A DNA stretch of 64,000 nt from Thysanoteuthis rhombus (Eukaryota > Mollusca > Cephalopoda > Oegopsida > Thysanoteuthidae). Both the position numbers and the translations under genes were made by a program. Below the pieces are notes generated by a model that ran no database searches, was not told the origin of the DNA, and was given only the letters and a program-made list of their open reading frames with translations. The stretch lies in assembly GCA_963457665.1 (NCBI GenBank), contig OY735207.1, forward strand, positions 45,411,679 through 45,475,678, written 5' to 3'. This document shows, piece after piece, positions 29,479 through 63,779 of the stretch. The stretch's first letter is position 1. Every line of letters begins with the position of its first letter.

Positions 29479-30269
29479 TGACACTAGGGGACCAGGAGTC
29501 CCCCGTGTCCTAAAAATTACTATGGTTATTACCAAAGGAGTTGTCTGTATTAAAGGGTTAATCTACAACTGAAAAGTAAAGGGTTAATATGTTTTTGAAA
29601 TACTGTAGGAAGTTGAGAATTATGTGCTTCCAAGTACGGGCACCTGCAGTTTCTCAATTTAATGTGTTCTGTCAAATCCCTGGGTTGCAAAAACAAGTAC
29701 TTTTAGAGAAGTTCTCTTCCTGATTCGATGACCAGATAAGCGCCAATGTCTGGGGTTTTGAAAGAAAAGTAATTTGCAGAGTTCTTGAAAGAGGGGGAGG
29801 CTAATTGATGATCTTGGATGGACTTGCGTCGCGAGATGGATGAGGGTCAATATTTGGGATTTTCTGGAAGGATCGAGATAACGTCAACAGGAAAAGAAAG
29901 GAAGTTAATTGATTTGTTTGGACAAAGTGACGTCACGGAGGGGGCAGTGTTGGTGCCCGGGGCTTAAATAGGAGGGATTTTCGTAACAGTGCAAGTAGAG
30001 TTGGGGGTTCGAGAAGAGAACGCTACCAGTCTCTCTTGTCAGCTGGTCCGCCTTTGTAACCGTCAACCGCTGCTACCATCAAGTAGACTACTGTTCATGA
30101 CATGAGAGACCAGTCAGTTTGATTTAGATGAAAATCGGCCACCTCTCTTTTCAAATGCGAATAAGCATTTCCCGTCTCCAGAGATATTGATAATCAATAC
30201 TCTATATAAAACAGTTAAACGGAACTCTGACTTGTTGCCTTCTTTTACTAACCCAGTACCACGGCTGGT
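29479..30269 (+). mobile_element. Probable solo LTR fossil, family B
   Basis: The stretch opens TGTGACACTAGGGGACC, has a TTAAATAGGAGG TATA-like block at about 29965-29976, an AATAAGCATT poly(A)-like signal at about 30160, then a U5-like CTCTGACTTGTTGCC tail and a CCAGTACCA end. Its GC is higher than the surroundings, and it abuts the family A LTR that begins at 30274. No coding region accompanies it and I could not fix a target duplication. Gypsy type is my guess. Age unknown. Confidence 0.45.
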
Positions 30270-30273
30270 TTGG

Positions 30274-31116
30274 TGTAGTTTGTGAGACCATCACTTAGAC
30301 GCTGAAGGTCTACATGGTTCACGCAGCTTTTCGTGTCACCATGGTTGAAAGTGGTGTAGGTATTATGGTTGTCCGGCTTCTATGTAGTTCTCGTTGAAGA
30401 ATGAGTGTCTGCTGTTTGTGGGTCTACACGTGGACGTCAGTGGAAAGGTTGAAGTAGGAAGGGAGATATATAGTCACGATGACAGCAGGGGGAATATACA
30501 CGCCAAGTTTGATTGTGGATGTGGAGATCAAACAGTGAAGACCACACATACAAGTAATTAGATGAACAAATAAAACGTACATTTAGTACTCAAACATTTA
30601 TAATAATACAAGACTGAAATGGAAATACATATTAGAAAACATTGATATGATCATGTTAAGAGAAGGGGAGAAAAGATGGGCGATAGCTTCTAAGTGAAAG
30701 TTGGGAGCTTGGTGCCATGATAGTTGTTGTCATGTGTTGAAGTAGAGTTGTCTGAACAGCTGTGAATCCATAAGACTTGACGTGTACCAAGGAAGTGTTA
30801 TGGAGACTAGTTATCAGTGCGTATGCTTAACAGCTAAGTTGTGTGCGATATATTTGGAATCACATGTGAGTAACTTGGGGGCCATTCTCTGATGCTGGGA
30901 AACACGACAAACAGACTATGTAAGACAGAAAACACATCAGGTTTAATCCATTGGCACTTTGCGAATTAAGAAGAATACCAATTCTGGAGAGGATGAGGAG
31001 AGAGTAACCAGCTAGAGGCTCTTACAGGGAGCTGTCATTGCTGAAAGTGATATTTTAGAAATCAAGCTAAAAGGGTCTTGTATTAAATTCTTATCTAAAA
31101 GTATGGGGGTGCTACA
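30274..31116 (-). mobile_element. Solo LTR fossil, family A, second minus-strand copy
   Basis: On the minus strand it begins TGTAGCACCCCCATACTTTT and ends CACAAACTACA. Flanks are TTGG (30270-30273) and GTGG (31117-31120), a possible 4-bp duplication with one change. Blocks shared with 12121-13013 include GAGT(T)AACTTGGGGGC, ACAAACAGACTAT, AAGCTAAAAGG and AAAAGTATRGGGG. Shared with the opposite-strand copy at 6893-7868 is nearly the whole middle part. It has no coding interior. Divergence from its sisters is large, so it is old. Confidence 0.75.
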
Positions 31117-31119
31117 GTG

Positions 31120-33540
31120 GTTCAAAGTTCTAATAATATGAAATTTATAAAACAATTTCTCTCTACCCTAAACAATTTCAAATATCTTGTTGAGTGACAT
31201 CAACTATTCAATTAAGATAAATTTCCCAAAAGAAAAACATTTTCGACAATAAATATCAACTTTAACATTAAAAACAAAATTTATAGAAAAGTGATGTAAA
31301 TTCAAGTGAAGGTTGAGCGAAGCCCGATAATATGAATGAGTATTGACCAGATCGAGTCGAAAAATCATCGGCCAGGCCTGTTTCTTCCTTTTTTGCCCCA
31401 TCTCCCATTAATGGCCTACTTTGATCATTCGTGTACACGAATACGATACCGACAACCAAGTTTACACAACGATTACTCAGCAATCAATCCTGGTCAAACA
31501 CGATCGTACATGAACGTTTGTTTTCCTTTTCAGCTGATATGTACGTACTGTCTACGATTGTCTTCTTTGTTGACTATTAAATACATGTTTTATTGTTTGT
31601 CTGAAAGCGCAGCATCTGTTCTCATTCCTTCTTTCATGAACTCTTAGTAAGACTATTCGGATCCGTACATTTAAGGTTGCCGCTTGTTCTTGTAAGGAAG
31701 GCAACATGGCGATGACCGGATGTTTACATCAAGATCAAACATGACTGATTCTATACTTGTAGCTTTCTCTCCAATACTCTTTTTGTAACGTCATACATGG
31801 TAGCAGTAACCAGGATGGGGTCTCAATGGGAGCTCTAACATTTCTCGAGGGGTTATAAGCTATGGACACCACAATAATTATTATTACTCCCCACATTATA
31901 AGATTCTAATACCTACCAAGACGTAGACATTTTAGCCAATTCTTGCCTTCAAAGATGGTTGAACATCTGGCAACCATCTATGAAAGCTCATCGAAAAAAA
32001 ATTATATTATAAACAAAACACGCAAACAGTAGATATGGAGAGGTAGACAATCATAGAATTTCATCCAGTCGAGACTGGTCAATTCCACTGGAACTAATAT
32101 CATGCGACACCGCCCCTTTCATTAGTTATGCAACTTCATGTATTTGGCCCCCAAAGTAGACTTGACTGCGATATCGTTGTTTACTGTTCGTTTCAGCACC
32201 CTAAATTTAGTGATTTGTATTTAGCAAATCTTTTTAGCTGTTGAACATACATCGTGCAGATATCAGCAGACGAATTATTCTTTCTTTGATTTTCAAAACT
32301 AAACACTCAGGATAATTTCACGTCATTAAATTGCTACCATTCACCAAAAATGTATGATTTTTATTTATCTAAGATATCAAAGGATTTTTTTAACGAAAAT
32401 TTATGGAAACTGAAAGATTTCTTTCAATTTCTAAAGTTGGCGTTCTTTCTGCAGATGAATGATGACCAATAAACTACACACTAAGAAAGATAGTAAGATT
32501 ATATATTATTAACAGTATGCCTGCATACTTAATGTTCTCTCATGTCTTTTAGCTCATTTCACCCTAAAAAGAAAATGCATGTCTCTTTTAAACCTAGACC
32601 GCAGAGTACGACAAGTGCACATCATGATATTTTCTGTCAGAAAGAGCTGCACGCTTGAGAAAATCGAGACCACTGAATGTTCAATGTTTGATAGAAATGA
32701 GACTGAAGTTTTTACACCTTTCAATGTAAAAAATGCGACCCTATATCCGAGGGACACAAATGAAGCAGGCGGTCTCTCAGGAGATTGACCCTTCCTTTCC
32801 TGCATTCAGGTGAATGTTGATCAACACTTGGTGCTTTTTACGCATGAATTTTTCACGCAATACCTAGTATGCGCTTTGTCAGAATTATTGAACTCAAAAT
32901 AGGATTTCCTTTCCTTTAACTGAGAACAATTGTGCACACTTGGGTCGAATTAAACTCTTGAAAATTTGCTTCTGTAGATCAGAGAAATTGTGGCAAAAAG
33001 AAAAGGCCGTACTCTGCAGTTGGGCTTTACAAATTGCAAATAAAATATTCAGATGATGACCGCTGGGAAGGAAAATATTACGATCAACACCGTCAACATT
33101 GTTTATTATTTGTGTTGGTCGGAAGTATTTCCGCAAAGCTTAAAAGCTTCACAATTTTTTTGTTATAATGAATTATGTAAGTAGATTTCGCTAAAAAGCA
33201 AGGTGAGAATATTTTTTTTTGCCAGACTGCAAAGAACCTGAAAATGTGATTTTGCATTATCAGAATAATTTTCGTGACTTCAGAGGTAATGCACGCTTTT
33301 GTTTCATCAGAAACAAAGGGTTTATCGAACGGAGATGAGGGTCTTAATTGATCAAATTACACCTTTTTAGAGATGTATTCTTCTATTCTAGTAACTGTAC
33401 ATAGGCTTTCATGAGTTTAATCAACGTTGTATTGCGATTTGCTTAGTGTTGATACCTATACGCTTCTGAAAAATCTTCGACACCTTATTTTAAAAACATA
33501 ATTTTATCTCTGAAATCATTCTTTAACTTTTTGTTTTTGC
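31120..33540. other. No gene recognised; some CpG-richer sequence
   Basis: The plus-strand open frame at 31336-31647 (103 codons) is the longest here. It has no recognisable domain, and its composition does not persuade me that it is coding. Around 31340-31800 CpG is more frequent than nearby, so a promoter is possible. Confidence 0.35.
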
Positions 33541-33543
33541 TAG

Positions 33544-33725
33544 GAAGAGAATTTCTTCCCCATTAATTATGACGTAGAATTGGACTTGAAAAAAAAGTCA
33601 GTTATTGTTTACACCCATTGTTATCGGCTTAAAATTACCGAACGGGAAGAAGTTGCGTATCAACACTCGGCAAATCGCAACATAACGTCGGTAAAACTCA
33701 CGAGAGCCTGTAAAGTTACTAAAAT
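33544..33725 (+). CDS. Candidate internal exon, unknown product
   Basis: A frame of 60 codons plus two bases stays open between a good acceptor (TTTTGTTTTTGCTAG) and a good donor (AAAAT then GTAAGA). It starts EENFFPINYDVELDLKKKSV and continues IVYTHCYRLK and ITEREEVAYQ. I do not recognise the family. There is no ATG at its start, so it would be an internal exon with its neighbours unidentified. An open stretch of this length can arise by chance, so the call rests on the paired splice sites. Confidence 0.3.
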
Positions 33726-35047
33726 GTAAGAATAATATCCCGAAGTGCAATTAAATCAATTAAGGCTCTCTTCAGTATATTATTTATGTCAGTACGGGAT
33801 ATCCGTTCTGTTCGCCCGGTAATTATTTATCCAACCGAGAACAAAGTTTTTGAACATTTTTGACAATCTTTTGTTTTTAGGTAAGTGCAAATTTTAACAG
33901 TAGACAAAATCGACCCCGGATGCACAATACGGACTAAAACAAACGCAGACAGATGGGGAATAGAGTTCATTACAACCCATCAAACATTAAAACCATTTAT
34001 GTGACGAAAGTTTTCACAGAGAAATTAACTTTGTGGTGAAATTTCCTACAGAAAACCGCAAAAAATATCACTTGATTTATTTTTTAATATTTTTGCACAT
34101 ATATTTTGACAGAATTATTGCAGGGCCAATACTTCAGTGAGTTTGTTTTGGACGAGTTTTTGATAATAAACATAAATGGCCAATAATATAAAACATGAAT
34201 AAAATTTTAAAAAAAAGAATAATATAAGTCAGTACAGAAATTATTCACCTCATTATTTGCGCATGTATATTGACGGAATTGTATGACTAATATTTGATTA
34301 AAATGAGTTCGTTTTTCAAGTTTTTTTAATATCAAGTTCAATAAATAATAATAAAAATGAAAAGGAGTAATAAATCAAATAATACATATTGAATTAAGTA
34401 ATTTGTGTGAACTGTAGCAACTAACTATTTTGTTGTCCATGGTTAAAATCCGCTCTTACCTAAAACACAAGATTGCCTTGTTTTGTTTTTTGTTTGTTTT
34501 TTCAAACTTTTCTTTGAAGTCCAGCTAAAATTATTGTGCTCCTTGTTGAGGTATGACTCAAAGAAATGAGCTTAAAAATTGAAATACGGATTTTTATCAG
34601 AAGTATTTCAGGTTTCTAATAAACACCACTTTATGGTTCAAATAGATTTTTCTTGAATTTTGCTCATCAATCCTATCAACAGATTTAACTTTCATTTCCT
34701 ACCGTCAAAACTGATTTTCATTGGAACTATTTTCATGCTACACCGTTTGTCAGAGGAGCTAAGATTTTTACTTTCGTATCCAATCCAATTCAATGCGGTG
34801 TAAGAAAATAGAAATGCTAACAAGATGAGATAGGCTTGGTTGCACTATGGTCGAACTCCCTAGCTTCATTAAAATTGAAAAAAAAATCTGGATACAATAT
34901 CATCCATAAACTAATGGGTATCCTATTTTAACCCCTTTGTAAGTAGTTCTTGTAAATGATAGTTGCTAACTTTATCAAAACAAGTCGACGTGAATTGAGA
35001 GAGTGATTTCGTCATCAGTTTTTGCACACGTCACTCTTATTCGTGCG

Positions 35048-35055
35048 TGACGTCA
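35048..35055. promoter_or_regulatory. Perfect CRE-like palindrome
   Basis: TGACGTCA occurs in a short tract that also has CACGTCAC (35029-35036) on the upstream side. This is suggestive of a CREB/ATF-type regulatory region, but no promoter or transcript start can be tied to it. Confidence 0.25.
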
Positions 35056-35404
35056 CTGGTTTTTGGTGTGGTCATTGTCATCCTCATTGTTGTGATAAAC
35101 GTAAATGATGTCAAAACTCAACAATACTTCGAGTTTGACGGTATATAGCTAGTAAAATTAGGCAATTGTTTGGAATACGTAAGGTTAAACATTATGTCGC
35201 CACCATTTTGAATGGCTAAATAATAGTTATTGGATAGATTTACTGTTACTGTTGGGAAAATTTGATTGAGCCAGACAACAATTTGTTCAAAATCCTTGTA
35301 TGATTTATCAAAAACGCTCAAATGTAGCTATTCCAGCACTGATATATAATTGAGAAATTTGAAGCACTAACCCAATACCTACTTACTAACTATATTCTAC
35401 CAAA

Positions 35405-35431
35405 TAACCCTAACCCTAACCCTAACCTTAA
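35405..35431 (-). repeat. Interstitial telomeric repeat (TTAGGG)4
   Basis: On the plus strand TAACCC repeats three times and then continues TAACCTTAAC, a slightly degenerate end. This is the TTAGGG motif of most metazoans (not the TTAGG of most arthropods). A looser GGTTAGTG...GGGTTAGGG stretch lies at 50685-50745. Confidence 0.8.
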
Positions 35432-35689
35432 CAGTACCTTCTAACCGTAACTAAATGCCATTTTGGTATAAAGTAAACATTATTTTTAAATCGAAAATAA
35501 CTTTATTTAATCAGTGGCAAAAATCTAGCCTTTTTCAGCCATTTGAAAACACATTATCTCTCTTGACTACCTCCCTTGCAAAATGTCGACAAAATGTTAA
35601 ATCTTACCTTTTCCAAATGATTACCCTAGTTACTATCATTTCTGTATCTCAATTCATTAATTAGTTCTGATTGCTGACATCTCTTTGTT

Positions 35690-36020
35690 GGAAGTAATTT
35701 TTGGCCTTTTATATCATTTCATTATATATTTTCTTTAATTCATTGTAAAGATTTTTTTTAAAGCTAGGCTGTTGTCGATGTCTTTCATGATTTTAAATGT
35801 TTGTATTATGTCTCTTCTGTTTTCCTTTTCTTCTATTGTTGTTAGTTTTGATTTTTCAAGTCTTTCTTCATAGGGGAGTTTATTTTAGTTCTGGAACATG
35901 TTTTATTGCTCTTCTCTGGATATTTTATAATTCTTTCATATGGTTTTTCATTTGAAATGTGAGGACCAAGCTTGCACTGCATATTCTCATTTTATGTATG
36001 TTGTATATAATAATACTTGG
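35690..36020 (-). mobile_element. LINE tail, CR1/L2-like reverse-transcriptase C-terminus
   Basis: On the minus strand the translation includes YAVQAWSSHFK, then a block like K.SREEQ..M, LPYEERLEKSKLTTIEEKEN and RRDIIQTFKIMKDIDN. This matches the thumb region of CR1/L2/Rex-type LINE reverse transcriptases (Y...VW.P......LE..QRRATK.......YEERL..L.L.TLE.RR.RGDLI..YKI..G.D). The order is right but several stops and frame changes intervene, so the copy is dead. Clade assignment within the Jockey superfamily is uncertain. Confidence 0.75.
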
Positions 36021-36819
36021 ACCTTAGGAAATTTGCTTTTTCTGAATTTATACAACTCTATGTTTGGCGTTTTTCAAGGTTTTTGGGGCTACGATCGGTT
36101 TTAACTTCTGAAACAAATTTTAGATTCGAAATACTGAATTACTTCCCTTGAATTTCTTTATCTTGCCTCATATTCTGTGAGCTGATTGGACTCAAATATC
36201 AATTGTAATGTATTATCAGTTTACATAATGAGCAGTGATATTTTTTCTGGCCTCTTCAGCCTCAAGGCAACAATTTTATTGATTAAAATATCTCCAACCA
36301 ACTATTTGAGACAATGGATTCTTCTACTGAAGCGATTTCAGTACTATCTTATAAAAATTCAAATATGTCTATGAATTTTTTTGCAGGATCAACTGATTGT
36401 TAGAATATAGATTAAATGAATTATATTGCATATCGGACACTATTATTTGTCAATTTCTGACGCACAACTTCTCAAATTTGAATCCTTTTTCATTTTAGTT
36501 ATTTACTTTGTTTGACAAGTTCTAAGTATTATTGGTCATTAATATTGAATTATGTTTCATTCTTATTCATGGAAAAAGATGTAATTGGGATATGAGGCTT
36601 GGTAAAATAATCTAAGGAATGTAAAAATTTGTTTGGGACATTAAAGCTGATGATGTCTGCTTACTGTAAGAAAAATAAAAAACTATTTTGATTGGACATT
36701 AACTACTTTTAAGATACATTTGTTCATTCATTCATTTATCTGTTTATTTTTCTAAGAAGCTGTTCAAAATTTAGAGCCATGATTTTTCGAATGAATAATT
36801 TGTTTTTTTAAACTTTCAG

Positions 36820-36870
36820 AAAAGTGCTTCATCCACTATTTTGATTGTAATTGGCAACTGAAAATTTCTA
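36820..36870 (+). promoter_or_regulatory. Possible spliced 5' leader before the Tigger-derived gene
   Basis: A polypyrimidine tract and AG (TTTTTTTAAACTTTCAG) end at 36819, 51 bases upstream of the first ATG. If used, the 515-codon frame sits in one coding exon preceded by a non-coding first exon elsewhere, which would favour a host gene over a simple transposon copy. Confidence 0.35.
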
Positions 36871-38418
36871 ATGATGCCACGGAAACGCAACGATCTAACA
36901 TTGGCCCAGCAAATGAAAGTGATCAAAATGCTGGAAGCAGTGCCAAGAATTTCACAGTCCATAATTGCTAAGCATTTCATGGTTTCACAGCCACAGATCT
37001 CACGTATTGGAACTAATCGAGTTGAAATTCGCAAAGAATGGGAATCGAACAATAATCCAACCCAGAAACGTCGACGTTTTGTTAATAAAGATACTGACAT
37101 AGAGAGGGCTTTACTGCGTTGGTACTATTTTGCTGTCACACATAAGCTGCCAGTCTCTGAGGACACTTTGAAGGGAAAGTCAGTGCATTTTGCTGAGAAG
37201 TTTGGTATTACTAACTTTCTTCCTTCAACTGGCTGGCTTCGACGTTGGAAAGAGAAAAATGGTATACAGTTAGCATCAGAGGGACTTGAGATAAATGCAG
37301 TGCCCAACACTGTTGATGAACAAATGGAGAATCTAATTCACACCATTCTGACACTGTACAAACCCTGTGATGTGTTTGCATGTCAGGAAACAGGCCTATA
37401 TTTCAAGTACCTACCCGAGACGAAAGGCTACATCAAGTCAGAAGTCCTCTCCCAGCAACCCCCAGCTATGCAGAAACTCACATTACTTTTCGCTGCTAAC
37501 ATCACTGGGACAGACAAACAGGTCCCGGTTGTAATTGGAAAGCAAGAAAAACTATCTGGTTTTGCTAACACCAGAATTCCTTTGCCTTATTATTACAACA
37601 GAAGTTGCTGGATGACGTCTGAGGTTTTTGGACATTGGCTTACACAGTGGGATGCACAGTTGCAAAAATGCTCCAGAAAAATTCTCCTTCTTTTAGAAGA
37701 GAGTCCTGCCCATTCCAGAAATCTACAGCTACAAAATATTCGCTTGATTTTCCTTTCACCCAAAGTCGCCACTCCAAGGCAACCATTTTCTTTAGGTATT
37801 ATCCATAATTTCAAGGCAATATATCGACAACATATGATACAACGGGTTGTTTCACTTGTGGGCAACTATGAACATTTAGAGGACAGCACTCATACTGGCA
37901 TGGTTTCCATCATTGATGCTCTTTATTTGATAAAAGCTTCATGGGATTGTATCTCCAAAGACGTCATAACATACTGTTTCAACAAGGCTGGTTTACCATC
38001 AACTCAGTTAATAAATGATGTTGATTTGACTGTTGTGCCTCCTGTTGGCATGTCAGATATAGACTTCCAAGCTTTTATCTCTGTTGATGATAATCTGCCA
38101 TGCACAGGTGTTCCAAGCGATGAAGATATCTGCCAATCTGTTCTTGAAGAGCGTGAGGGTGCTGCGGTCATCGTCGATTGGATGAATGGCCCAGAGCCAG
38201 AAGTACAATCAGTTTTAGGATTCTCAGCAAAGACACCGTCCCCATCATCTCAACAAGTAGTTGCTGCCTGTGAGATCCTACGCCTTTGGTTACAGACCAA
38301 GGGTACTGAACATTATAATGCATTTCACATCCTAGAGTCAGAGATTCACTCGAAAGTGCTTCAAAGCAGGGAGCATCAGAGTACTTTTACTTCAGATGGA
38401 AATCTTGAAATTCTATAA
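36871..38418 (+). CDS. Tigger/pogo transposase-derived protein (TIGD/JRK/CENP-B superfamily)
   Basis: An uninterrupted 515-residue frame, about the length of vertebrate TIGD proteins. Residues 1-50 form the first helix-turn-helix (LTLAQQMKVIKMLEA...IAKHFMVSQPQISRI). Residues about 75-135 are the CENP-B-type second DNA-binding domain (ALLRWYYFA, then GITNFLPSTGWLRRWKEKNG). Residues about 160-345 correspond to the DDE_1 core. At the first catalytic position the usual NADETG is ACQETG (Q172). The second, LLLLDNAPAH, is LLLLEESPAH (E276). The third, QPMDQGVI, is QPFSLGII (S307). No expected Asp is retained, while the fold-defining residues around each are. The C-terminus (about 395-515) is acidic then lacks known motifs. 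I see no CAGTRAACC inverted ends or TA target pair flanking it. The first of two adjacent ATGs was taken as the start. Likely a nuclear DNA-binding protein exapted from a pogo transposase; its target is unknown. Confidence 0.88.
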   Translation: MMPRKRNDLTLAQQMKVIKMLEAVPRISQSIIAKHFMVSQPQISRIGTNRVEIRKEWESNNNPTQKRRRFVNKDTDIERALLRWYYFAVTHKLPVSEDTLKGKSVHFAEKFGITNFLPSTGWLRRWKEKNGIQLASEGLEINAVPNTVDEQMENLIHTILTLYKPCDVFACQETGLYFKYLPETKGYIKSEVLSQQPPAMQKLTLLFAANITGTDKQVPVVIGKQEKLSGFANTRIPLPYYYNRSCWMTSEVFGHWLTQWDAQLQKCSRKILLLLEESPAHSRNLQLQNIRLIFLSPKVATPRQPFSLGIIHNFKAIYRQHMIQRVVSLVGNYEHLEDSTHTGMVSIIDALYLIKASWDCISKDVITYCFNKAGLPSTQLINDVDLTVVPPVGMSDIDFQAFISVDDNLPCTGVPSDEDICQSVLEEREGAAVIVDWMNGPEPEVQSVLGFSAKTPSPSSQQVVAACEILRLWLQTKGTEHYNAFHILESEIHSKVLQSREHQSTFTSDGNLEIL

Positions 38419-38877
38419 TGTATGGAGGCTTTAGGTAAATTATATTTGACATTTTTATAAGATATTTTAACCATATAGTCATCCTAGGGTGACAGTAAAA
38501 GTCATAACGTGTATCAGTTGGTATAATTTATGCACATAGTCTCACATAATGTTTAATAATGTATAATATACTGTATGATAAATTTCTATCTAATAATGTT
38601 TAGTGTAATGTTTTGATGATGGCCCTCCAATGAAGGGGTTACATCAAATGCTCCATAGATTGTAATTCACCTACTGCATTTATTACTGATCAATCTCACT
38701 CAATGTTGGTGGAAGCCCTTCAAGTATCCAACCCTCCCTGGGCTCCTAAGTCTCTGAAAACATATACATAAACCTTGAGCAATTCATACATAGTACAGTT
38801 TACAAATTGCAACTTATATGAATTGTCATGCATAAATAAGATAACTGAATGTTTAATATCTATTCTATGAATTGAAA

Positions 38878-38883
38878 AATAAA
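38878..38883 (+). promoter_or_regulatory. Candidate poly(A) signal for the Tigger-derived gene
   Basis: AATAAA about 460 bases after the stop codon, in the context GAAAAATAAAAGATG. A second similar site follows at about 38913-38919. Which is used cannot be told from sequence. Confidence 0.3.
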
Positions 38884-39395
38884 AGATGATTTCATCTTAT
38901 GCATAAATCTTAAAATAAAAGCAGAAAATAATTTTTTAATTAAATCTTTCAAATGAGAAAGTGGAAATGTTGGTTGTGTTAAATTTCAGTATGATTTGAC
39001 TAAAAATGTTGAAGTGCTACTTATTACGTACCGTTGTTAAGCTATTACATATTGTAAACAAATTTTCAAAGACGAAATTCTCAGATTCTTTACATTAGAT
39101 ACAAATAATTTTTATGGCAGAATTTTTCTCCAATTATTATTCGAGTGAGTGGTTCAAAATTATAGCAATGAAATTAACATGTTTACAAATTTCAGGCATT
39201 TTTATCGATATGTTTAATCTTAAGTGCTTTTGAAAGATCACGTCTTCAACCTGACATAATTTTTGTTTCTGAGTGTGTATTATAAGATTCCAAAACAAAT
39301 TATGATCAGATTATACTATGATACTGTAAGAAAATGATTATTATAAAGAAAATCGGTCTCATTTAATGAAATTTTAAAAAAAAAGAAGAAATCAT

Positions 39396-39640
39396 GAGGT
39401 GTGCTCCTGAAATATAGCACACCTTATATACACCTGCTTATTTTTATCACTGTCACCTTAAACCTTCATCTGACATACAACTTGCCATTGGGTGTGCAAT
39501 GTTTTCTCCTCAAAACTGGCAAAATATTTAATTACAAGGGACAGAAAATTTTGTTTCCCCATTATTAACCATAATCACATTATTGAATCAACTTAGCAAT
39601 ACCAAATTAATGACAAATTAACAGGTGTGGTGCACACCTG
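39396..39640. repeat. Two short hairpins sharing AGGTGTGC arms
   Basis: AGGTGTGCTCCTG...AGCACACCT at 39396-39425 is a stem-loop, and CAGGTGTGGTGCACACCTG at 39621-39639 is a second, related one. Both are followed by TATATACAC. They may be the two ends of a small palindromic element of about 240 bp. Confidence 0.4.
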
Positions 39641-41232
39641 ATATACACACATATATATAATAGCCCTATTCTGTCAGTAATATTTGCCCTAATTTCTCAC
39701 CACTTTTAGGTGAAATATAGCAGAATTTGATTTTTGTTCATCAAATTTTACTTAATGTCTAATCTTACTTTGGTGATCTTCATTTATAATCTTGTGAGTG
39801 ATCTATTATAGTTAATTCAATAATGTTATATATTATATTCTATGGCGATTTCCTTGAATATAATTTAGAAATCAAATTATATTCTGAGAGACAATGATCA
39901 ATGAAAAATATTGTCATTCAAGTTTGATTAATATTCTGGAATATCATGGTTTTTTAAAAATTATATTTTCCACTAAGACTAATCAACATTTACCTATCCT
40001 CAGGGCAAGGTAATCTTTTATAAAAGTTTTCTATGAGAAGATCATCATGGCTTAGCTTCATGAGTGAAGATTTATGAGGGGATTCCATGTCTATTGGGTG
40101 ATGGCTGGCATGACCTACAAGAGACTGACAAGTTTTTTCACAACAGCTGCCGAAGATGGTTTGGCAACTGAAGGGAGCGCCAGTTTTACAGCATTGCTTC
40201 ATCTACTCTAGTTTTGCAGATTGCAGACTGATCTGTAGCTTTGTGGTGGAGTGGTGTGTGCGCATACATTTCTCCACCTATTTAACTATGGCTTCAGTTG
40301 TCATGGCCCAGCAGGTCCCTAGATGGTAGGTTTCATGTTGAAGTTTCCTTCTCCTAGGTCAAAAATTGAGCTGTCTGAAGGAGTCTGCCACCCCTTAAGT
40401 CTTTGCTCGAAGGTAAGGCTAACTCAAGCAGGTTGAAAGTGCTGGTCCCAGAATCCAATACAGAACTACAGAGTATTTGATATAGGTTTCGAAGTTATGG
40501 AGCTTTATGAAGTTTTGATATAGTATAGGTTTTTGCGGTATACTTTACATGACATCATCAATCATCTCTTGGTTCTAGCCTCCTTTACATACTTGGGTCG
40601 ATTACCACAACCATTTTCATCGTTTAGTTAAATAGAATGATTGGGCAATTTTCAGTGACCTTATTTCACTATGTCATAGTTTGGCTGTTGTGTGCCTAAG
40701 CAAATGGTCAAATATTTTTCTATCTCATTCTTTCAATGCTGCTGGTAAGATAAAAATAGATAAGTAAATGTGGATTTTTGAAGGAAATGTGAGTGCTGTA
40801 TGGTAGAAAAGTTTTTCTCTTTGAAAATAAGCAAAGAATATTTAGTGTGGCAATTTCTGCTTGTGACCACTGATCCTTTGATTCAAATATGCAGTTTTAA
40901 GAAACACACACACTATGTACTGAAAAGAGAATGATCAAGTCTTAGCCTATAAGAATTAAATAATGTTGTTTGATGCTTAACAGGTAAATAGCTAAAACAT
41001 TACCATCCTTGGATGCTGAACATGTTGATATATAAATTTAATTCTATTCATTTCTCTATTTTTATGTTATTATATGATTAAGCTTTTTAATGATGATGTT
41101 CATTATTTTTGATGAAACGTGTCCATTAGTTTTCTATAAAATTTCATAAAAAATAACCTGCATTAAAGATAGAAAATGCTGTTCATATATTGGATTTTTA
41201 AATTATTTTCTTTCTTTTTCTTCTTTTTCTAG

Positions 41233-41418
41233 GGTCTTGGATATGGAATGCTGACTCTGGCTTCAAAAATCATTGTTGGAGAAACGGAAGAATTGAACTT
41301 GATAAATAAAGACAGAAAGTGCAGAATATTTTTAAATACTCAAGGGGGGGAGTCTTTTATACGAATTTTGAGAGCTATCTCAGGCATAAAGAGAGAAAAA
41401 ATACAGAAAATTTTGTAA
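41233..41418 (+). CDS. Candidate terminal exon, unknown product
   Basis: After a strong acceptor (TTTCTTTTTCTTCTTTTTCTAG) a phase-0 frame encodes 61 residues to a TAA: it starts GLGYGMLTLASKIIVGETEE, continues LNLINKDRKCRIFLNTQGGE and ends with a basic SGIKREKIQKIL. Composition and the absence of stops look like real coding. I do not recognise the protein, and I could not find the preceding exon. It lies 2.8 kb downstream of the Tigger-derived gene on the same strand but cannot extend that frame, which has its own stop. Confidence 0.45.
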   Translation, partial: GLGYGMLTLASKIIVGETEELNLINKDRKCRIFLNTQGGESFIRILRAISGIKREKIQKIL

Positions 41419-41835
41419 TGAAAAAACAATGTTTCATTGTGTATTTGACATTTTTAGCAATGGTTTAACTGTTTTTTTCAACATGCACCTGTATTATGTG
41501 ACGTTTACTTGAAATGTTAGCATTATTCAGATGAACATTTATTTTCAAATAAGTTTAGTATAAGTATCTTAGTGTCATTGGTAAAAAATAATGAATTTAA
41601 AATCCTGACGTGTTCTTTGTGAAAACCTGAAACACCCAGTGACCCCAAGAAACATTACTAATGTGTCCAGGTGTGTCACAAGGTGATGTATGTGAAAAAA
41701 GCTTCTCTTTTAGCAAATAATCTTGAATCTTGAGTTCATTATCTTCATAATCCCTGCCATCACCTGTCATTGATGAAATATTTCAATGCAAAACCATCCC
41801 TGCCATACATTAATGAAATATTTCAATGCAAAAAC

Positions 41836-42006
41836 TATCTCTGCCACTTCCTTATACTACAAGTTCTCAAACATTAATGAAACGTGTGGCAGGGAATGGC
41901 AGTGAGTTAATTTATGTTTGGAAACTAGTAGAATTGAGCAGTGGCTGGGAATGGCTGAGAGTTTGTTTATGTTTGAGAACTAGTAATATCAAGAAGTGTC
42001 AGGGAT
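41836..42006. mobile_element. Small foldback/MITE with ~45-bp inverted ends
   Basis: The left arm, TCTCTGCCACTTC then ACTACAAGTTCTCAAACAT, pairs with the right arm (reverse complement TCCCTGACACTTC then TTACTAGTTCTCAAACAT). Just upstream (41755-41835) the words CCTGCCAT.AC and ATGAAATATTTCAATGCAAAA are repeated twice in tandem. No target duplication could be fixed. The open frame across it is not a gene. Confidence 0.6.
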
Positions 42007-42248
42007 AAAAAGTGCTGCCCTGATATAACATATTCAAGAATCTTAGAGAATTCCCGACATGTTTTTATATTAAAATTCTAATCTTGAATTTTTTTGAAAA
42101 TGGATTGACCTAAGTTTGATTATTATTTATTGAAAAACAAAGCATTAATTTTGCTATGAAAATCATCCTGTAATGATTTATTATCCATAAAAAAACTACC
42201 ATGTGTATTGTTTACGAATAAGATCTAATTTTTTTTCCTTTGCTACAG

Positions 42249-42427
42249 ATTCTCTGAAAACAATTCTTTGTGAACATATCATATTTCTAGACACAACATG
42301 GCCATTAATTGTACAAATGGGAATATTTTTGTTGTCCATCATCCTTGTGATTTTATCATTTCCTGAAAATGTAGAACAACTGCAGATGTCAGCATATGGT
42401 GTTTATATTATCATAACCTCCTTGTAA
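42249..42427 (+). CDS. Candidate terminal exon with one membrane segment
   Basis: After an acceptor (TTTTTTTTCCTTTGCTACAG) a frame needing one base from an upstream exon encodes about 59 residues to a TAA. It begins SLKTILCEHIIFLD. A hydrophobic stretch, WPLIVQMGIFLLSIILVIL, is long enough to span a membrane. I do not recognise it. It may be an alternative last exon of the same unknown gene as 41233-41418, but their phases differ. Chance is a real alternative. Confidence 0.3.
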
Positions 42428-42867
42428 ATAAACCTGCTAATATCAGTCTACAATGTATTTACAAACTCTGCTTCATTTTTTCAATGAATTTTTCCATTAG
42501 AATATTCTTCTTTGGAAGTCTAGTATTCATCAATACTGATCTGTCCTTGGAAAAGCTCATATTGTTCACCAAGTGATATTTTGAAATGTTAGTTGTAGCT
42601 TGTATAAATACCATACTCTTTAAAACCCATCTATGCATGACTGAAATTTCACCTACCCTCCTTTCTATGAGACGTCTGTACACAAGCATAGACTACTTCA
42701 CAAACATTATTTCCTCAAAGGAATTACAGATCAGTGACATGAAATTTCTTGTACTGAATCCTCCCCCTCAAAAAACTATTGAGCTTTTTTCCTTCTCAGT
42801 GATAAGTGACTTGAGAAGTGTCACTTATTATTGGTATTTTACTAAGCTTACCTTAATCTGGTACAAA

Positions 42868-42947
42868 ACTACAAATGTGGAGTGTCCAGTGAGGATTGAA
42901 TCTACTGCAATACTAGTGTGCTAACCACTACTACTTGGCAAAACAAA
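42868..42947 (-). mobile_element. tRNA-derived SINE head or tRNA pseudogene
   Basis: The minus strand reads AAGTAGTAGTGGTTAGCACA, then CT.GTATTGCAGT, then AGATTCAATCCTC. The first part matches the A-box region of a tRNA (TAGTGGTTAGCAC) and the last is a decayed B box (GGTTCGAATCC). Spacing is tRNA-like. It lacks a well-paired acceptor stem, so a functional tRNA gene is unlikely. Confidence 0.5.
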
Positions 42948-44305
42948 GATTAAGACATTTTGAAATGAAAACATGCATGGAATTTGCTGAAAAATATTTT
43001 AAAAAAGCATACATTTATAACTTTAAAAACTTCTATTAACATTAGGAATCAACAAAAACTGTCAACATAGGTTTCTTCAATTTTCAAATTGGTTTGATTG
43101 GTTATGTTTGTATGTATGACAGGCCATGCCAATGGAGCTAGAGGGCTGAAAATTTAAACTTTTATCCCTGCACACCCAATAGGTTTTTAGAAGTTTATGT
43201 AAGTTTATCCTATGGTTTCTTAGTTTGTGTCCGACAGTGTTCATACTTGGTTTTTGAAATTTGTAAGAACTTATTCATTGATCACCCCTTTTTAAAAATC
43301 TTTTAATTGATCAACCTCAACATGACATGCTGCCAAAAAAGTCACATGATAGTTACTACTGAATGACTAACCAGACCTGTTTTCATTTGAAAGATTTTAC
43401 ATGGGAGAAACTTCAATGTTAAGGCATTTATTTATTTAGAGCCTTTAATTACTAATTTGTGGATTTAGCATCTGATATTTTAGTGCAAAATTTTTGTTGT
43501 CAATTTAAGATTAAAATATTAATATGTTCAAAAAAAGAAGGGTATTCAAAGTTAAGGGTTTAAAAAAAAAACTCAACGAATTTCAAGTACAGATTTTTCT
43601 TTGAATTTACTGAAAAATAAACTTGGCATTATTTCATAATTGTTGAAAAGTGCAGAATCCTACATATAGCTTTACATTGGAATGTATTCTCCACAGTCAT
43701 TCCATATCAGATCACCTGATTTTAAGAACTTTCCCCAGGTCACACTCATTGATTCCAGTGGAAAAAATCATGTGATACATTACCAAAGAAAAATCCAAAG
43801 TATTATATCTAATGGTTTTGAAATCAAAAATCTTTGATTTTACTCAATTTTATATATTTTGCCAAACAAGCCTTTCCGTCCAAACTCAAGACATATACAG
43901 CATCTTCCATATAGTGTGTACTGCTTTGAAACTGTTTGACTAGTGTTAACTTTTTCTGTGGAATTCAAAAATGTATAGATCAAGTGTATCTACTTTTCCT
44001 CCTTCATGGCTCTGGAAATAGCTGGAAATCCCAAACGTAAAAAAATAAGTGCCCATTTAGAGAGTTTCTCACTTAAACAGTATGCAAGATAAAGCACTCA
44101 TAGTTTTTTTCCTGTCATATATAACATAATATGTCATGTTTATGCAGTAATCATACTTATTATTTATATAAGAGTGTCAAAATGATTCTTTGAAATACTC
44201 AATTTTCAGGGGTCTTTAAAATAGCCTATTTTCATGTCTTAATTTGAGAATGTGTACAGTTAATCAGCTCTTTAATATCTTCACCATGTACTCTTATGTA
44301 CTTGG

Positions 44306-44914
44306 AGATGATCTGGCATAAGTTTGGTGTTGTTGCTGAGCTTCCTTGTGGAGAAATGATTTTTTAATGCAGGTTGGGGGATGCTGAAAAGTTCTCGGCT
44401 TGAGAAACATTGTCTGTTCTCAGCCCAACCCACCTCCCAAAATCTGAGCATCATTTTGTCACTGTAGCAGGAAAGAGTGTTCCGTTGTATTGCAAAATCT
44501 CAATTTGCAGGATATTTGCACTTTAAAAAAAAATTTATATCCACATCATTCCCTTCTTGGTCAGGCTGAGAACTTTTCAGCACCCAGAACATGTCAGCAC
44601 AACATCTAAAAAAATTATGATTCCAGAATGAAGTTCAGCAACAAGGCCAAATTTTTGTCAGATCAACTTCAGATACGTTTGATTTGAGTGAAATAATCAG
44701 TTTCATTCCAAGTAACTGATATCCTTATTATTTTCCTTCCAATTACTGGTATAAAATGAGTGATCACAATCAAAAAAGAAATATTGATGATCAGGAAAAG
44801 GAGGAAAAAAAGATGATCTGACAAAAATTTTGCTTTGTTGCAGAGCTTCATTCAAACGTTTTGATCTTTTAAATGCTGAGCTGTCATGCTCTTGGTGCTG
44901 AAAAGTTCTCAGCC
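44306..44914. mobile_element. Three-arm inverted repeat element
   Basis: A ~100-bp arm occurs three times in alternating orientation: A 44306-44402 (+), B 44564-44665 (inverted) and C 44813-44914 (+). Arm B begins GGCTGAGAACTTTTCAGCAC and goes on through CATGTCAGC, AATGAAGTTCAGCAACAAG and TTTTTGTCAGATCA. The reverse complements of A and C show the same order. B and C match best. A/B and B/C could each fold into a long hairpin with a 150-160 bp loop. The arm end GTGCTGAAAAGTTCTCAGCC is a terminal repeat I associate with invertebrate DNA transposons, though I cannot name the family. Confidence 0.65.
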
Positions 44915-45322
44915 TTTTGCTATTTTCGTATTTAACCCGTTTACTCAAGTATAATGCGATCTTGAATATAATTTTTGTAGCGGATCACTGGGAAAAGTGG
45001 ATCATTATGATTTTTTACAGCTGTGAATACACAACAGGATGGCTACTTTATACTTTTTCTCAAGTCATCACTTTGTCATCTTATTTAATGAAAGACTTGC
45101 CTGCTTGAGCATTGCTGCACAGTGTTCAAGCTGAGAGACCTAATTTTGAGCCAGAAGTAATATTCAGATGTACTTTTACTTTCATTATAGAGCTACAACT
45201 ATTCATAATATTCCTATTGTGCTCCATGAGGTAAAATTAAGATTGTATTAGAATTATTTCTTATCAAAAATGTGATCACTGCGCTTGCTCTTTACAGAGA
45301 TGTAAGGTTATCTTTCTCACTG

Positions 45323-45886
45323 GTATGAGTGGGGCGCAGTGAATCAGGGCTGAGTGGATCATTTCTGGGACTGAACAACTTCAATTCTTTTAATCTAAAT
45401 TGATCCAGTCAATTCATTTTATGTAGTCTACTCGGAAACTAAAAGAGCATTTCAGTTTTACTTTTGTATCATTTTTTTTCTCCTCTTGAATCTCTTTGGA
45501 GACTGTGTGAATGTGATATTGTTTTGAATGTTCCCTTCAGTATGCCTAACTTTTACCAATGAATGTTTGATCACCTTTTGTAACATAATCTATAATTCAA
45601 CAATACTTTAATAAAATGTGTAGTTGGTTTCACTCTGGGACTATGAATCTTTCAATCTTATCTTGATTCACTGTTCTGCTGGGGATGATTCACTCTTAAG
45701 GAGGGTTTGGGCACAGTGGATCAGGAGAAAAGAATCTGCCAGCTGATAACTTGAAGAAATATTACTTTCTTATCTTCATATTACCTACTCAAATGAGTTG
45801 ATCTTTCATTTTCCCACTCAAATATATTAATGAAATTAGCTTCTACTACAATTAATTTTTCTGATCCACTGTGTCCCGGTTTCCCC
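45323..45886. mobile_element. Two adjacent short inverted-repeat elements
   Basis: GGGTTTGGGCACAGTGGATC (45703-45722) pairs with CTGATCCACTGTGTCCCGGT (45861-45880). GGGGCGCAGTGAATCAGG (45331-45348) pairs with CTTGATTCACTGTTCTGC (45662-45679). The shared core, GCACAGTG(G/A)ATCA, suggests two members of one MITE family side by side. There is no coding content. Confidence 0.55.
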
Positions 45887-46181
45887 TTTATGCAGGTATA
45901 TATTTTCTCTTATAAATGATATTGTCAATTTGATTAGTTCATGAGTCCAGAGAAACTGTTTGCTGTATGTTTTGATTTGACTCTTTCAATTTCTGATTTT
46001 GTAATATAATGTAGTGAAATTATTTTACTTTACTCCTACAAGTTGAATTTGAAGTTATTTGGTTAGAAATTGTTTCATGAATAACCTTAATTTCAAGCAT
46101 TGCCAACTCCTTGTGTGAGATCTCTTATATTGAGATTTCCTACTGATAAGACAAATCTAGTGCTGCCCCCCCAAAAAACTA

Positions 46182-48499: not shown

Positions 48500-49495
48500 T
48501 AACCATTTTCTATCAATTCAGAGAGAAACAAATATTTCATTTTCTAAAACAAAAATTCTGGGCATGACTTCAGATTCTCTCTCATATTTGAACCAAACTT
48601 TTTTCGGAGTAAGAGAAAAAATTTCTTTCCCAATTACAAAAATTAAAATGACAAAATTCATTCACACAAAAACTTGAAATTTTTTTTGTCAATTCTCACA
48701 GATTGAATTTTTTCTCCATATGAAGTAAAATGAAATATTTCAGAATTATTTGTACCCCAAATATTTCCAGTTGAGGGGTCGGCATGAATCAGGGGTTGAC
48801 CCCTTGACCCAAGTGTAATTATATTTATGTTTTTACCTGTAATGGAATAAATGTGAAGAGACGTATTGCAAACAATGATCAATTTGTTAATTTGACACAA
48901 AGAACAAAATTTCTCCTGTGTCGATGATTTATTTCATATTCAAAAGTGGAGGAATTTTTCTTCTCTCCCAAAACATAAGTTTATAACAATAATGATTTCC
49001 AAAGTCAGAACAAGAACCAGTTACAACAAAACTGTCTGGGGAAATCAAACACATATCAAGGGGGAGGAGGGAATTTGTTAAATAAAAGACTTTCACAAGC
49101 AAATTCTCCTGCTTCAGTGAATCCTGTTATCTATTCGTCATTGTCATCACCAAGAAAGACATTGTTTTCTTTGCTAACATGTATCAAAGAAACATTTAAG
49201 CCCAATCTGTTCACATTCCATAGCTTATCAAATACCAAGTTCTTGGCAGCAGGCAATCAATCCAAATTGAATTTGTCCCATCTTTTCGCACAACTTGTTA
49301 ATTTCCTTCTTGGTATTCTGTATTATTTCCTTTAAATTCTGCCATGATTACTTGCATTTTGAACCACAATCTGTATTCAGTTCTTTAGTATACTTCTTTG
49401 TTCAATCATTCAACCATCTTAGACTCCTCTGGAGTTCCTGTATTTCTTTGGCCAAGGTGGGGCCTTACGATTTTCAACAAAGACCAAAATTCAAC
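48500..49495 (-). pseudogene. Decayed coiled-coil plus beta-propeller (TRIM-like) gene copy
   Basis: From about 49495 downwards the minus strand gives, after an acceptor-like TTTATTTCCAG, a heptad-rich coiled coil (PTLAKEIQELQRSLRWLND, later SWQNLKEIIQNTKKEINKL and CEKMGQIQF). Then come propeller-like strands: KNLVFDKLWNVNRLGLNVSL, ITGFTEAGEFACESLLFNKF, LDMCLISPDSFVVTGSCSDF, and in 48900-48658 KLIIVCNTSLHIYSITGKNI and HADPSTGNIWGTNNSEIFHF. Further remnants (KVWFKYERESEVMPRIFVL) reach about 48510. The order coiled coil then propeller recalls TRIM-NHL-like proteins, though RING and B-box parts are not visible. In-frame stops interrupt the coiled coil twice and the propeller at least once, and at least three frame changes are needed, so it is not functional. 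It could be a processed copy or one exon of a dead gene. Confidence 0.55.
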
Positions 49496-63239: not shown

Positions 63240-63459
63240 TATACTCCTTAGAGTTACTTATCCTTGATTCTATGATGTAAAGAATGGTTCATTTGGAGAT
63301 GAAATTTTTTTCTACCCTTAGTTGGAGTTCTATTTTTCTTTCTTCATAATGATCTTCTATTAAATAACCTGCCACCCTTAGACTCAGTGATTCGGCTTTG
63401 TAATCTCCTATGCTTTATTTTGCCTCTGAATTCCTGTTGTGATTTCTTTTCTTCTACAG

Positions 63460-63641
63460 ATTTTCCATCAGAAAAAGCAGATGAGCCCAAAATCGTTCTT
63501 GACAAATTGCCACACCAAATAAAAATATTTAAAATGTTTCATATTTTGTCCAGCGGTGTCCACCTGAAGTACGCACAAACTTTAGCCCAAATATCTGTTC
63601 AGTATTACTGGCCCACAATGAGAGAAGATGTAAGAAAATGG
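63460..63641 (+). CDS. Exon with integrase-type H2C2 zinc-binding domain
   Basis: A frame of 182 bases (two bases completing a codon, then 60 codons) lies between TTTTCTTCTACAG and GTGAGT. It encodes FPSEKADEPKIVLDKLPHQI, KIFKMFHILSSGVHLKYAQT and LAQISVQYYWPTMREDVRKW. This is the zinc-binding module at the front of Gypsy-type integrases (H....GHLG..KT......YYWP.M..DV..WV..C). Clean splice sites on both sides are unusual for a retroelement and favour a host gene built on an old integrase, as in GIN1 or KRBA2. A fossil in which the sites arose by chance is the alternative. The exon needs a phase-1 upstream partner, so it does not join directly to the exon ending at 59433, nor to the optional 60567 donor. 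Confidence 0.6.
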
Positions 63642-63779
63642 GTGAGTATTTTATTCCCTCATTATCTGTACATCTTAGTATATAAAGTTATATATATATA
63701 AATATATTTTATCAGGTGTTTTCTCTTGCATACATCCATTCATTTTTAGAATCAGTTGCTCCTGTATCATATCCAAGAT

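Follow-up and report, generated by a model that had tools for sequence, protein, structure and literature searches.

An unbroken pogo-type transposase frame lacking its catalytic aspartates is probably a domesticated gene in a squid

Within the 64-kb stretch of squid DNA analysed here (hereafter the window), we found an uninterrupted coding frame for a 515-aa, transposase-derived protein of the pogo/CENP-B type at 36871–38418 on the (+) strand, identified by its ORF, Pfam matches and a genome DNA search. We consider it probable that this frame is a squid host gene, derived from a domesticated transposase of the pogo superfamily, of DD30 (pogoR-like) type, and kept by selection. An open frame alone proves little here, because the genome has many other long pogo-type frames that are open (17 were aligned). 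It is the open frame in combination with the divergence of a duplicate, the lost catalytic triad and the absence of element ends that, at the level of sequence, speaks for a host gene.

Domains, catalytic site and placement of the frame

All 515 codons proved to be free of stops, as the sequence-only reading of this DNA had claimed, and this was the sole stop-to-stop frame of at least 150 aa within the window. The motifs quoted in that reading (QETGLYFK, LLLLEESPAH and QPFSLGII) were each found as quoted. Pfam placed a CENP-B_N helix-turn-helix at aa 4–56 (36880–37038, (+) strand; PF04218, E 1.1e-4, 22.2 bits, cut-off 21.2), a second DNA-binding domain, HTH_Tnp_Tc5, at aa 76–133 (37096–37269, (+) strand; PF03221, E 5.6e-8, 33.1 bits, cut-off 22.2) and DDE_1 at aa 201–370 (37471–37980, (+) strand; PF03184, E 7e-32, 110.8 bits, cut-off 22). 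CENP-B_N and HTH_Tnp_Tc5 followed by DDE_1, all above the Pfam gathering scores, is the arrangement that marks a pogo-superfamily transposase-derived protein. The CENP-B chain 1hlv was the top solved structure in a sequence search (aa 4–129, E 4e-9), and no Pfam match to the CENP-B dimerisation domain was found in the frame. Net charge was +14 in the N-terminal 135 residues (pI 10.7), +2 over residues 136–375 and −16 in the C-terminal tail. The first ATG has C at −3, a weak start context. Fifty-one bases 5′ of the start codon is a candidate 3′ splice site, a pyrimidine-rich tract followed by CAG (36798–36819, (+) strand), which on a crude, home-made and uncalibrated score ranked 50th among the 3565 (+) strand AGs in the window, a rank that is not evidence of use; a second candidate, ending at 36756, ranked 39th in the same scoring.

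Ten further window frames, picked by eye from 182, yielded one Pfam match above the cut-off. What is left of a retroelement pol gene lies at 63303–63701 on the (+) strand (Integrase_H2C2, PF17921, E 4.6e-11), and two adjoining frames at 48658–49126 on the (−) strand have a translation that appears repeat-like by eye (NHL- or WD-like), with no Pfam match. Elsewhere in the genome, the molluscan haemocyanin domain PF14830 has 52 matches, compared with none in 14 control genomes. One haemocyanin unit (L053) scores 834 bits over 395 residues in its best domain of chain 6r83, which is Todarodes pacificus haemocyanin (PMC6503924), and 716 bits against the octopus chain 1js8; on this evidence the host is most likely a squid close to Todarodes. 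Nine haemocyanin-domain matches of equal score, in 464-residue frames about 2.2 kb apart, lie at C25:56607734–56625492 (G000) and may be a tandem array of recent origin or an error of assembly.

The catalytic positions were read from an alignment of 18 pogo-type frames, each 450 aa or longer, in the same genome. These frames, which also underlie the column counts and the tree, come from 30 loci of 34 genome protein-search matches; the counts exclude L027, whose longest frame is not of pogo type, and C15:28475697 (549 aa) is also outside the alignment. The first catalytic position is Q172 (37384–37386, (+) strand), where 14 of the 17 other frames have D, and it precedes the stretch matched by DDE_1. 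The second is E276 (37696–37698, (+) strand; D in 16 of 17) and the third is S307 (37789–37791, (+) strand; D in eight of the others, N in six and E in three). Alone among the 18, the 515-aa frame has no D in any of the three columns, and the DDD or DDE triad expected of an active pogo transposon is absent. The triads of the other 17 are D/D/D in five, D/D/E in three and have one or two other changes in nine. The earlier claim that all three catalytic acidic positions had been lost therefore stands for the aspartates, every one of which is replaced, but is one too many for acidity, because E276 is a conservative D-to-E change. Across 38 conserved columns (those in which 15 or more of the 17 others agree), the 515-aa protein retains the shared residue in 23 and differs in 15, more than any other of the 18; the others change 0–10 in the same leave-one-out count. 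The changed columns include N170, D276, N298 and Q308, at or near catalytic positions, as well as K197, K200 and R202, and those retained include W84, W122, N210, G213, H281, P305, G309 and Y318. Open frames of 552–847 aa at three other loci, L010, L013 and L021, in which the first catalytic position reads G, G and H, are further domestication candidates.

The protein had also been called Tigger-type. Its domains do belong to the pogo superfamily, but the catalytic spacing and the tree suggest that it sits on the pogoR (CENPB/TIGD3/4/6) side and not with Tigger in the sense of Gao et al. In the 515-aa frame and in one other of the 18, L002 (C6:64634764–64636350), 30 residues separate the second catalytic position from the third; in the remaining 16 the spacing is 32–36. 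In a tree of the 18 frames, which holds no named pogoR sequence, these two grouped with support of 100/99. The QE30S triad and spacing would fit the pogoR side. Tigger in the strict sense is disfavoured by the 30-residue spacing and the grouping with L002, on a measure for which the published ranges overlap (29–36 for Tigger and 29–59 for pogoR in the passages available from Gao et al., PMC7386202). The branch of the 515-aa protein is long (1.85, versus 0.74 for L002), which would be compatible with relaxed as well as shifted constraint.

Compared with L002, the two DNA-binding domains of the 515-aa protein show 34% and 29% identity, and the DDE part shows 34%. Unlike the 515-aa frame, L002 has an intact D/D/D triad and has partial relatives of at least 55% identity on at least ten contigs, several of them with stops. 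Of 76 matches to L002, the nearest full-length relative of the 515-aa frame, 44 carry in-frame stops (82 of 521 candidates scored), which shows that decay is usual in this genome. Open frames of 243–273 aa at L015, L023, L025 and L028 match only the CENP-B-type DNA-binding part of the query and are possibly a set of DNA-binding-only proteins; L015 resembles an internally deleted L002 relative, in two pieces of 84% and 77% DNA identity. In viral contigs, three stretches fit a pattern for relatives and none was confirmed.

Copy number, element ends and a segmental duplicate

When the frame was searched as DNA against the whole genome (2.73 Gb, 514 contigs), the matches were the frame itself and one 222-bp fragment of 83% identity, located 16.6 Mb away on the same chromosome. 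The closely similar copies expected of an active pogo transposon were not found in this search, and the best full-length relative in the genome is only 30% identical to the 515-aa frame. The expectation of a single copy was thus confirmed at the DNA level, and the many near-identical copies that the sequence-only reading had named as contrary evidence did not turn up.

We found that the 222-bp fragment is the start of a diverged segmental duplicate at C10:28.847 Mb (L031 4824–6938). The segment collinear with it in the window, at 38195–42536 on the (+) strand, holds the last 73 codons, the stop region and the 3′ flank. The duplicate begins within the frame (first whole codon 443), crosses the stop codon and continues through five more flank blocks, so that no transposon end is visible on the 3′ side. 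Two dispersed repeats identified by genome search lie in gaps of this alignment, one at 38620–39611, which begins 0.2 kb after the stop codon and for which there is no room in L031, and a second at about 41748–42021. Because both fall in alignment gaps, they are most simply explained as later insertions in the window copy. The first contains candidate polyadenylation hexamers (AATAAA at 38878 and 38914 and ATTAAA at 38939; 38878–38944, (+) strand). We considered whether the shared 3′ flank is itself a mere repeat and disfavour this, since the repeats sit in the alignment gaps and the shared blocks match only the duplicate: the two larger flank blocks did so genome-wide (among 40 of 1883 candidates scored), and the smaller ones did so in a local sample of 215,550 bases. 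The shared flank blocks are therefore likely to be unique in the genome. Comparison of the window with 40 kb of sequence surrounding the duplicate also gave six short matches that are not collinear, and these were kept out of the counts.

The earlier claim that the frame lacks terminal repeats and a flanking TA pair was upheld. Within 2 kb on each side, the best TA-flanked inverted repeats were no better than shuffles, with 52%, 55% and 97% of 60 shuffles equalling the best pair at 14, 20 and 28 nt. Patterns of the CAGTRAACC type and their reverse complement, another sign that had been named as contrary to domestication, were absent from window positions 30001–46000 in strict form in both orientations; a looser pattern on the (+) strand (CAG, 0–3 bases, AACC) had four matches, near 31804, 34049, 37453 (within the frame) and 44421. 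A perfect 14-nt inverted pair at 36345–36358 and 38451–38464 was rejected as terminal repeats, being AT-rich and, by our estimate, probably due to chance. As a positive control, the inverted-repeat test was run on 17 other loci and recovered ends at L009 (start CAGTAAACC) and L011, each with 17 of 20 positions in the inverted ends matching and none of 40 shuffles as good; a pair at L007 also beat all 40 shuffles, but is A/T-rich. L009 and L011 have long open pogo-type frames that keep TA-flanked ends, with triads of D/S/N and D/D/N. Together, the genome DNA search, the duplicate and the repeat-end test place the 515-aa frame at a single locus in host flank without an element end, as expected of a domesticated gene.

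Selection on the frame and competing explanations

The duplicate also served as a measure of divergence. In the flank, 207 of 1046 aligned sites differ (0.198), and 45 gap events, 38 of them frame-breaking, occur in 1103 bases. In the shared coding block there is a single gap, of 3 bases at the last codon, and no frame-breaking gap, and the differences over the 73 shared codons number 8, 10 and 19 at positions 1, 2 and 3. Codon positions 1 and 2 were less diverged than the flank (18 of 146, p = 0.032), and position 3 was above flank divergence, not significantly (19 of 73, p = 0.23); the coding block as a whole was not significantly lower (37 of 219 versus 207 of 1046, Fisher p = 0.35). Over these 73 of the 515 codons, all in the C-terminal tail, the NG86 method gave dN 0.144, dS 0.383 and omega 0.376 (95% bootstrap interval 0.19–0.76) against the paralogue. 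A maximum likelihood codon model gave omega 0.40 and rejected omega = 1 (p = 0.019). It did not reject omega = 0.5 (p = 0.56), the value expected with one constrained and one free branch, and omega alone cannot place the constraint on one branch, because the duplicate, too, could have been coding during part of its history.

We also simulated the neutral decay of a frame of this length on the window branch since the duplication. The inputs were 0.115 changes per site, which is half the distance measured in the flank, and the 38 frame-breaking gaps per 1103 bases over two branches. About 6.7 stops and 26.6 frameshifts would be expected under neutrality, and none of either was observed. The simulated probabilities, 0.0012 for no stop and 2.6e-12 for no frameshift, are to be read as orders of magnitude, since they derive from alignable blocks, which should understate neutral decay, and from gap counts that depend on the penalty chosen. 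The prediction of a dN/dS well below 1, made for orthologues, was thus supported with a within-genome paralogue in their place (omega 0.38 or 0.40, p = 0.019, 73 of 515 codons), and the contrary value near 1 was not seen over those codons. With the single copy, the absent ends and a frame unbroken against neutral expectation, these values support the domestication proposed in the sequence-only reading.

These same results bear on whether the frame is simply a transposon copy that died recently and stayed open by luck. Such a copy could well have lost its catalytic residues, and many long pogo-type frames in this genome are open, but near-identical siblings and detectable ends are both missing, the best full-length relative is remote, the shared 3′ flank has already diverged to the extent given above and the simulation expects lesions where there are none; we regard recent death as very improbable. 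That the element is still mobile, either through an atypical active site or with the help of another transposase acting in trans, is hardly conceivable: E276 leaves it one acidic group, but other conserved residues around the site are replaced too, and neither detectable ends nor copies were found. A once-domesticated gene that is now relaxed and becoming a pseudogene would account for the long branch, the weak start context, the 15 changed conserved columns and the dispersed repeat so close behind the stop codon. Set against this are the 515 codons with no stop or frameshift where about 33 lesions would be expected under neutrality, and we judge relaxation to be unlikely.

If the frame is a host gene kept by selection, as we favour, the selected function would most likely be DNA binding, judging from its domains and charge. 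The two positively charged helix-turn-helix domains would bind a specific DNA site, perhaps in remnants of the parent element. The inactive DDE fold may act as a structural or dimer scaffold, and the acidic C-terminal tail may contact other chromatin proteins. CENP-B and TIGD proteins are thought to act as sequence-specific chromatin or transcription regulators, and we infer that the squid protein would be expressed as a nuclear regulator of this kind. Conservation gives no sign that DNA binding in particular was selected, since the two DNA-binding domains match L002 no better than the DDE part does. Alternatively, the gene might have been kept because the dead DDE fold or the acidic tail makes contact with other proteins, in which case DNA binding would have been lost or would be incidental. 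The DDE_1 score, far above those of the two DNA-binding domains, is consistent with this, as are the equal conservation of the DDE part relative to L002 and the fact that the codons covered by the selection test lie in the tail. Yet both DNA-binding domains pass curated cut-offs, match 1hlv and carry the +14 charge, and we consider protein contact as the sole function to be rather unlikely. A more speculative version of the DNA-binding proposal, to which we give a small chance, is that the protein is an independent squid-lineage analogue of CENP-B. On this view a fully disarmed DD30 transposase would recognise remnants of the element it came from, or a satellite derived from them, across the genome, and these sites would form a host regulatory or centromeric network. 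Were this so, the partial relatives of L002 on at least ten contigs would be candidate binding neighbourhoods.

Comparison with known pogo-derived genes

Pogo-derived host genes are found in vertebrates and also in fission yeast. In the passages available, CENPB, TIGD3, TIGD4 and TIGD6 are derived from pogoR, and the triad is described as unrecognisable in CENPB, TIGD3, TIGD4 and TIGD5 (Gao et al., PMC7386202). For TIGD4 the triad and spacing are given as DD30K or DE30K, and for TIGD6 they are mostly DD30N; TIGD-like clades are described there as limited to tetrapods and their immediate relatives, and independent domestications are inferred (Dupeyron et al., PMC7325037, in part). As published descriptions have it, vertebrate TIGD4 and TIGD6 resemble the 515-aa squid frame in length (about 510–520 aa) and in the order CENP-B_N, HTH_Tnp_Tc5 and DDE_1 (PMC7386202), and also in the 30-residue spacing and degenerate triad (PMC7325037). 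The squid frame, likened here to those descriptions and not to vertebrate sequences, differs from them in that the first catalytic position is lost too. CENP-B shares with it the region at aa 4–129 that matches 1hlv and the unrecognisable triad (PMC7386202); unlike CENP-B, the squid frame has no Pfam match to the dimerisation domain.

Our literature search found no report of such a domesticated gene in squid, a result that says little, as the search reached few subscription journals. The closest published cases are molluscan: convergent pogo domestications have been described in Aplysia, in cephalopods, with separate Nautilus and Octopus events, and in Crassostrea (PMC10027918). No squid gene is named in the passages available from that paper, whose main text does not contain the word "catalytic". 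The approach taken here, in which a duplicate serves as a clock, could be applied to other solitary transposase-derived genes when the genome of a relative is not available for comparison.

Vertebrate pogo-derived host genes are thus already known (PMC7386202, PMC7325037, as far as the passages available from them go), and the mollusc CENPB-type factors described in the available part of PMC10027918 are species-specific expansions, whereas the squid frame is one copy. New here is this single squid case, in which the loss of the catalytic aspartates and of the ends, with the frame retained, is legible from one genome thanks to a segmental duplicate that happens to provide a local neutral clock.
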